Below the pieces are notes generated by a model, which was not told the DNA's origin, did not search any database, and worked only from the letters and a program-made list of their open reading frames with translations. Below, piece by piece: positions 33,634 to 35,383 of a DNA stretch of 64,000 nucleotides. Position 1 is the first letter of the stretch; each line of letters opens with the position of its first letter. The position numbers and the translations under genes are program-made. Location: assembly GCF_002156705.1 (NCBI RefSeq), contig NZ_CP019893.1, positions 1,240,001 through 1,304,000 of the forward strand. The letters are read 5' to 3'. This stretch comes from Natrarchaeobaculum aegyptiacum (GTDB lineage Archaea > Halobacteriota > Halobacteria > Halobacteriales > Natrialbaceae).

Positions 33634-34440
33634 TTACACTCGCCGCGTCAGGTGGTCCCGCACGGCTCGCTGACAGTCCGCACAGGCTCGCTCGAGGCGC
33701 AGCGTGGTCGACAACACAGGATACGAGACTGGGAACTCACAGTAGAGGTAGCGAGTGACCGAGCGCTGCCGGACACCAGCGCTGGCGTGATGTGAGGCAG
33801 TCCGCTGGAGCGTCGACTGGCGCTTCTCGAGCAGTCGCCGGCAGCGCTCGCGATGCTCGGCGAGGGCCTCGTGGCGTTCCTGGAGGTCGTCGAACCCGAG
33901 GTCCAGCAGCGGCGTCTCGTCCGCACGACAGAGCCATTCCGTAATCGAGTCGACCGTGGTCGCCGCAGCCTCGAGCGACTCGGCCTCGCGAGCGACTGCT
34001 CGCTCGAGGGCCAGACACTCGTCTCGGCGGTCGGTCGCCGCGGCGAGAGTCGCCCGTTTTACCTGTGGGGTGAACGCGCTCTCGGTCTCGGCGGAGAGCG
34101 CCACGGCCACGTCGGTTCCGAGCTCCTCGGCGATGGTCTCGAGGAGCGGTTCGGGCTGGTCGATGTCGGCGACGCTGTAGGGCCGGATCGTATCGGCGAA
34201 CAGGTCACGAACCTGCTCACAGCGGTCGTCAGTCTGGTCGCCGCCCCACTGCGATCGCGCCGCGAGGACCACACCGCCATCGGCGAGCGGCGGCGTCCCC
34301 GCGGAGCCGGGTGGGCTCACCGGCGATAGCTCCCGGACACCGGCTGCGAAGCGCTCGATCGCCGCCAGATTCCCCTCGAGGTGGTCGCGCTCGTCTGCGA
34401 CGCGCTCGGTCGCCCGGTGGATCGGCGTTCGAACGGTCAC
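33634..34440 (-). CDS. Helical haloarchaeal protein (DUF7260-like)
   Basis: The 268 aa product is mostly alpha-helical with heptad-like Leu/Ala spacing over residues 125-220 and a C-terminal region with cysteines (RLERACADCQRAV). I recall such proteins as DUF7260, from memory. Its start overlaps the stop of the upstream gene at 34437 by 4 bp (ATGA), so both are one operon under the double operator at 35332-35383. Function unknown. Confidence 0.7.
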   Translation of the reverse strand: MTVRTPIHRATERVADERDHLEGNLAAIERFAAGVRELSPVSPPGSAGTPPLADGGVVLAARSQWGGDQTDDRCEQVRDLFADTIRPYSVADIDQPEPLLETIAEELGTDVAVALSAETESAFTPQVKRATLAAATDRRDECLALERAVAREAESLEAAATTVDSITEWLCRADETPLLDLGFDDLQERHEALAEHRERCRRLLEKRQSTLQRTASHHASAGVRQRSVTRYLYCEFPVSYPVLSTTLRLERACADCQRAVRDHLTRRV

Positions 34441-35333
34441 GGCTCACACCCCGGCGTCGCGCGAACGATCCCGTTCGCAGCCGACGGTGCCGTCGACGAG
34501 ACGACGAGTCGCCACGATGCAGACCGGTCGGCCACTCGTTCGACGCTCGAAATCGCGAGGCCGTCACCCGGTTGCCGTCGGAGCAACTCGAGGCCGAGCG
34601 GAAGCGTGACGAGTCGATCCGCCGAGCGACCGAAGGCGTACTGCTCGAGTGTGACGCTCCAGGAGCCACGTCTCGACCCGGTTGCTGGCGTCGGTTCCAG
34701 CGAATAACCAGTGACTGCCGCGACGGCCTGGAGTCGCGAGAGGGTGGCCTCGAGCGGCGGCCCGGTCGGCTGGGACGATGGAAGCCGTGTCGCGGCAGAC
34801 TGGAGGAGTTCGAGCTGTGCTGCGGGCTCGAGTGCCGTCTCGAGTTCCGTCGCCATGCTCTCGACGAGCGTGAGACACAGTTCGTCCGGGTGGCTCGTCG
34901 ACTCGGCGACGTCGAAGTAGGTGTCCATGATCGCCCGTTCGACGTCGGCGTGTGACGACGCCGCGACGGCCTCAAAGACCGCGCCAGCGACCGCGTGACA
35001 GAAGTCGATCGTCGACGGCTCAGTGCACGTGTCCGACTCGATCGACCGGCCCGTCTCGGGGCTGACGAACCCGTCGGCCCCGACGCCGTCGTACGGACGC
35101 TGGCAGGCGATCACGTCGTAGTACGGAAGCTGTGGATCGTACCGCCTGAGCGCCGCCCGATACTGTTCGGTCGCTCTCGCGGCCGCGCGGGCGGTCGCCC
35201 GCGTCTCGAACGTGAGTCCCGCTGCGGGAACGGGACGTTCGCCCGTTCGCCCACAGATGAGACCGTATTCGCCCGAATCGCTCGCGAGCGATTCGACGTA
35301 CCGCCGGATGTCGTCGAGTGTCGCGCCGACCAT
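34437..35333 (-). CDS. Haloarchaeal conserved protein (DUF7551-like)
   Basis: The 298 aa protein starts MVGATLDDIRRYVESLASDS and has a DUF7551-like N-terminal domain (EYGLICGRTGERPVPAAGL, then RATARAAARATEQYRAALRR) to about residue 85, followed by a helical half. The DUF name is from memory. The ATG at 35333 lies within an inverted repeat, and a TATA-like TTTAATAG (minus strand) at about 35360-35367 predicts a leaderless mRNA. With the next gene it forms a two-gene operon, probably metal-regulated if the operator reading is right. Confidence 0.7.
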   Translation of the reverse strand: MVGATLDDIRRYVESLASDSGEYGLICGRTGERPVPAAGLTFETRATARAAARATEQYRAALRRYDPQLPYYDVIACQRPYDGVGADGFVSPETGRSIESDTCTEPSTIDFCHAVAGAVFEAVAASSHADVERAIMDTYFDVAESTSHPDELCLTLVESMATELETALEPAAQLELLQSAATRLPSSQPTGPPLEATLSRLQAVAAVTGYSLEPTPATGSRRGSWSVTLEQYAFGRSADRLVTLPLGLELLRRQPGDGLAISSVERVADRSASWRLVVSSTAPSAANGIVRATPGCEP

Positions 35334-35383
35334 TTTAGGCCACCCTAAAATCCGAGAGCTATTAAATTTCTAGGTGTGCCTAA
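35332..35383 (-). promoter_or_regulatory. Promoter with two DtxR/SirR-like operators
   Basis: Site 1, ATTTTAGG-CCAC-CCTAAAAT (35332-35351), is a perfect inverted repeat over the start codon. Site 2, CTAGG-TGTG-CCTAA (35370-35383), lies just upstream of the TATA region. Both fit TTAGG-N4-CCTAA, close to the operators of DtxR-family metal repressors (SirR/Idr in haloarchaea). Site centres are 35 bp apart and flank the TATA box, well placed for repression. The regulator identity is inference. Confidence 0.55.

Follow-up and report, generated by a model that had tools for sequence, protein, structure and literature searches.

A probable pair of DtxR-family operators at the promoter of a DUF7551/DUF7260 operon in Natrarchaeobaculum aegyptiacum

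DtxR-family regulators of haloarchaea include Idr1 and Idr2 of Halobacterium and Idr, SirR and TroR of Haloferax (PMC11349517). The window analysed here, a 64,000-nt stretch of the genome of Natrarchaeobaculum aegyptiacum (G000, 3.93 Mb; window at G000:C1:1240001-1304000), holds two palindromes of the TTAGG-N4-CCTAA type at the promoter of a two-gene operon whose products belong to DUF7551, DUF7552 and DUF7260; no paper was found under these family names in the literature collection that we searched. The iron box of bacterial DtxR and IdeR is a 19-bp element. Judging from the sequence, there is a high likelihood that the operon is controlled by a DtxR-family operator pair, and we consider it quite probable that the palindromes are operators of an iron-type Idr repressor, that the operon is iron-repressed and induced in iron starvation, and that its products assist iron import; of this reading, the regulatory part is well supported, and the biochemical role of the proteins is putative.

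Promoter and products of the operon

The operon lies on the minus strand. Its first gene (34437..35333, ATG at 35333-35331) encodes a 298-aa protein composed of DUF7552 (residues 5-79) and DUF7551 (residues 109-292), and the second (33634..34440, GTG start) encodes a 268-aa DUF7260 protein that is predicted to be helical. The genes share 4 bases, the start of the DUF7260 gene lying over the stop of the upstream gene. These domain matches bear out the two-gene operon of DUF7551/DUF7260-like proteins named in the original prediction.

In minus-strand order, the promoter comprises a distal palindrome, a TATA-like box, a proximal palindrome and then AATG. The proximal operator (35335..35348, minus strand; 35348-35335 in gene-strand order) is TTAGGGTGGCCTAA, an exact TTAGG-CCAC-CCTAA. 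The distal operator (35370..35383, minus strand) reads TTAGGCACACCTAG on the gene strand, that is, CTAGG-TGTG-CCTAA with one mismatch. Both are located over core promoter elements, at -50 to -37 (distal) and -15 to -2 (proximal) from the ATG, around the TATA-like box TTTAATA (35360..35366, minus strand; -33 to -27 from the A of the ATG). A presumed BRE, a purine-rich stretch just upstream of this box (about 35367-35372, read from the sequence), is overlapped by the distal operator. The TATA-to-ATG distance suggests a leaderless transcript.

It had been claimed that TTAGG-N4-CCTAA occurs twice, 35 bp apart, flanking the TATA box and covering the start codon. The two palindromes do start 35 bp apart around TTTAATA, but only the proximal one is exact. 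Its exact core ends at -2 and abuts the ATG, whereas the extended palindrome (35333-35350, TTTTAGG-CCAC-CCTAAAA) takes in the A of the ATG.

Alignments included 41 of 61 DUF7551 proteins and 32 of 68 DUF7260 proteins; H113, E121, Y139, E144, C153 and Y232 are invariant in the 41 aligned DUF7551 proteins. The model of the DUF7260 protein is helical (pLDDT 88.3), with 0 PDB matches at E<=0.001. The best structural alignments of the DUF7551 model, which is confident (pLDDT 88.5), are with H-NOX domains: residues 109-281 match that of guanylate cyclase (Z 7.5, rmsd 4.2, 151 aligned). The MopR/PoxR sensors and Bet3 are listed as well. We take H-NOX, V4R and Bet3, which are ligand-binding domains with roles in NO signalling and Golgi transport, to share one fold. 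Z is below 8, the Foldseek E value is 0.08 (with no match at E<=0.001), the DUF7551 sequence has no match among PDB sequences at E<=10, and no H-NOX/V4R/Bet3-type family appears among the Pfam matches of the 41 members. Membership of DUF7551 in the fold is therefore only a lead from the model, within the families that the VIA list covers. A more far-reaching reading, which we consider unlikely, makes DUF7551 a new archaeal ligand-binding family of this fold. Together with DUF7552 and the helical DUF7260, it would constitute a cytosolic module, induced when iron is scarce, that captures an iron carrier on its entry (a ferri-siderophore or a tetrapyrrole) and hands over or signals the iron, next to a FAD reductase dedicated to this task.

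At two loci (L144:5204-6423 and L151:5419-6662), sites 20 bp apart precede a pair made up of DUF7260 and a DUF7552-type protein that lacks DUF7551; given this arrangement, DUF7552 and DUF7260 may form the core pair.

Conservation of the operators

Within the window, the exact site occurs once, compared with 0 occurrences in 100 dinucleotide shuffles, and 1 of 100 shuffles attained two sites at <=1 mismatch. With <=2 mismatches allowed, the 2 matches of the window fall below the shuffle mean of 5.19. The complete genome has 7 exact places versus 2 for a reversed control, while the 16-mer at two mismatches gives 19 matches versus 60 for the reversed control and is hence not enriched. Since the count at two mismatches falls below expectation in the window and below the control in the genome, only near-exact matches are informative. 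The low count at this tolerance is what speaks for regarding the palindromes as chance AT-rich matches near a promoter, a reading whose probability we consider negligible in view of the lack of exact matches in the shuffles and of the conservation described below.

DUF7551 was found in 62 of 149 relatives. We examined 61 DUF7551 loci from these relatives (432,532 bp; G065, with a partial DUF7551, was omitted), using as controls 29 other palindromes whose half-site was permuted, and a second set, overlapping in part with the first, of 80 named loci with DUF7551 taken from other haloarchaea (840,716 bp). The 61 loci contain 104 exact sites, and none of the 29 permuted palindromes exceeds 2; in the second set, there are 141 exact sites compared with at most 4 for another palindrome. 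The original prediction had named conservation of the sites before orthologous operons as a check, and an exact site is indeed present somewhere in the fetched stretch at 58 of 61 loci and in 79 of 80 loci of the second set. A site lies within -200 to +5 of the chosen start at 38 of 61 loci and within 210 bp of the start at 46 of 80. Close pairs are spaced 34-36 bp apart in 34 of 34 cases (61-locus set) and in 34 of 35 (80-locus set). The 4-bp spacer, unconstrained in the search, favours Y..R (a fraction of 0.93 for either end, from 66 sites). Retention of the sites with a free spacer and a fixed distance within the pair is difficult to attribute to chance, and this cross-species conservation is strong evidence for operators.

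The order site-TATA-site-ATG recurs in many genera, with sites at -50 and -15 around a TATA box directly before the ATG. The -15 position of the proximal operator is repeated in many orthologues, TTATATA/TATTTAT-like boxes occupy the equivalent place, and two genomes of the same genus (G002 and G003) have a similar one-mismatch distal site at equal distance. A site abutting the start is not a feature of every clade, and in some clades the pair is about 100-180 bp upstream. Annotated records show small hypothetical ORFs in this gap, and inspection of the sequences for a conserved small upstream ORF gave no consistent start codon. Where a DUF7551 gene has no site of its own, sites are usually found further upstream, before siderophore-SBP genes. 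In a few relatives, exact counts do not exceed those of the control (site/control, for example: G017 4/4, G042 4/11, G063 4/5, G145 4/9).

Iron-import neighbourhood, operator dialects and candidate regulator

A DUF7260 gene is adjacent at no fewer than 29 of the 61 DUF7551 loci (at least 29 in a hand list from coordinates), and loose clustering places iron-ABC-type neighbours at 25 other loci of the 61. Loose clustering and a reading of the sequences supplied the labels of these neighbours (SBP, FAD enzyme), and only one member of each was checked against Pfam; these representatives match PF01497 (SBP) and PF07992 (FAD/NAD oxidoreductase). Deposited annotation was examined for five of the eight plasmid records that we found. 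In Halobacterium hubeiense and Halobellus limi, the DUF pair is adjoined by SBPs, an ATPase, an 'iron ABC transporter permease' and an NAD(P)/FAD oxidoreductase, and in Halosolutus by SBPs and an NAD(P)/FAD oxidoreductase. In Haladaptatus halobius, a 'metal-dependent transcriptional regulator' and an iron ABC transporter/permease are annotated nearby, and in Halorientalis litorea there is no iron gene in the annotation within 6 kb of the locus.

DUF7260 also occurs without DUF7551. We hand-picked forty such regions from a longer list and added L018; L142, which has no match, lies outside the 40. Solo copies close to the protein of the window have the exact site in 11 of 12 sampled loci, and distant copies in 0 of 28. 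At L117:6336-6794 and L134:5141-5617, a short, divergent regulator resembling DtxR comes after DUF7260; its identity to the 142-aa regulator described below is 37% and 32%, respectively, and PF02742 was not detected in these two.

Elsewhere in the N. aegyptiacum genome, exact TTAGG-N4-CCTAA sites front a gene for an Fe-type SBP and one for an ABC ATPase (the specific NCBIfam names are weak), so that this motif is associated with ABC importers of the Fe(3+) type as well as with the DUF operon. A second palindrome, TTAGA-N4-TCTAA (4 exact occurrences versus 0 for the control), is found at a DtxR gene of the FeoA type, at a gene for a ZIP transporter and at troA (L021:4128-4141, L021:4927-4940 and L018:4570-4583). 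In relatives, its enrichment is modest: it has a match in 27 of 31 genomes, several of them no better than the control. Two further groups of sites were observed, one a pair 35 bp apart before an Obg/Era-like GTPase gene divergent from the Fe-type SBP gene (L019:7087-7137), the other consisting of two sites, one of them weak, 26 bp apart before a macro-domain-like ORF (L017:4380-4421) for which we saw no metal link.

These two dialects bear on the question of whether the sites belong instead to a Mn(II)-responsive DtxR protein of the SirR/MntR/TroR type, which would place the operon in manganese (or zinc) homeostasis. Similar palindromes are read by DtxR paralogues, and in G000 a DUF7260 paralogue is flanked by a sirR-troABC cluster on one side and by a P-type ATPase on the other. 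However, troA, the ZIP gene and the L021 FeoA-type DtxR gene carry TTAGA-N4-TCTAA rather than TTAGG, and the DUF7551 orthologues adjoin siderophore/iron ABC genes. We consider manganese control unlikely and set the SirR assignment aside; because those three genes use the other dialect, we favour an operator of the iron type (Idr).

Three DtxR-family proteins of G000 exceed the cut-off: two have a FeoA domain (one at the ZIP gene, one at troABC), and the third, of 142 aa, carries PF01325 and PF02742. This short Idr-type regulator has an orthologue in 143 of 149 genomes; the 127 good genomes all have one. By elimination and from this near-universality, we assign the reading of TTAGG to it as the likely candidate. 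Four genomes in all have no exact TTAGG site (G091, G107, G120 and G129), and these also have no good Idr orthologue; they are small genomes of one family, and the co-occurrence is hence weak. In L022:3132-4149, the 142-aa Idr-type gene stands directly behind a gene for a 164-aa protein that has no Pfam match and reads as helical.

Proposed mechanism and comparison with known systems

In the presence of iron, metal-loaded Idr dimers would occupy both sites of the operon, one dimer covering the BRE next to the TATA box and the other the start of transcription and translation, and would thereby keep TBP/TFB and polymerase off. Once iron runs short, the repressor would dissociate and the DUF7552-DUF7551/DUF7260 pair would be produced; this pair is presumably cytosolic and may aid iron (ferri-siderophore) import or intracellular iron handling. 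The sites and their conservation, the geometry of the promoter, the operon structure and the iron-import neighbourhood are observed; we infer from them which regulator binds, iron as its co-repressor, repression as the sign of control and the biochemical role of the proteins.

The sign of control could also be the opposite, with DtxR dimers recruiting the transcription machinery under some metal condition. A site position upstream of the TATA box is typical of activation, and such an arrangement is seen at L018:8431-8467 (G000:C1:386430-386466), where a heavy-metal P-type ATPase gene next to a DUF7260 paralogue has two TTAGG-type sites, one with two mismatches, 21 bp apart and upstream of its TATA-like box. 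This placement suggests activation rather than repression of the ATPase gene, and a site pair before such a gene fits poorly with a regulator that simply represses uptake. The sites of the DUF operon, however, overlap the BRE and the start, where they would be expected to block initiation, and this geometry recurs in orthologues. Activation of the operon is thus very unlikely in our judgement, and we retain iron-dependent repression by Idr as the most probable reading.

Of the DtxR/SirR-like control envisaged in the original prediction, the DtxR-family repressor is upheld by conservation of the sites and by the iron-import neighbours, but the TTAGG dialect fits an Idr-type regulator better than SirR. 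The accompanying suggestion, that the sites offer a clue to the function of the DUF proteins, is strongly supported by the same two lines of evidence. For the uncharacterised families DUF7551, DUF7552 and DUF7260, this gives a specific candidate role, open to testing, in the acquisition of iron by haloarchaea, and the two dialects within one genome provide a route to separating iron from manganese regulons by sequence.

The operon resembles the haloarchaeal Idr regulons in that palindromic operators stand before iron ABC importers and a short DtxR-family regulator is near-universal in the relatives, but it encodes DUF proteins rather than transporters. With the operators of bacterial DtxR and IdeR, it shares a TTAGG...CCTAA-type palindrome; in contrast to these, the sites described here have a core of 14-16 bp with a free 4-bp spacer and are arranged in pairs, at a spacing of 34-36 bp, around an archaeal BRE/TATA element and the start codon.
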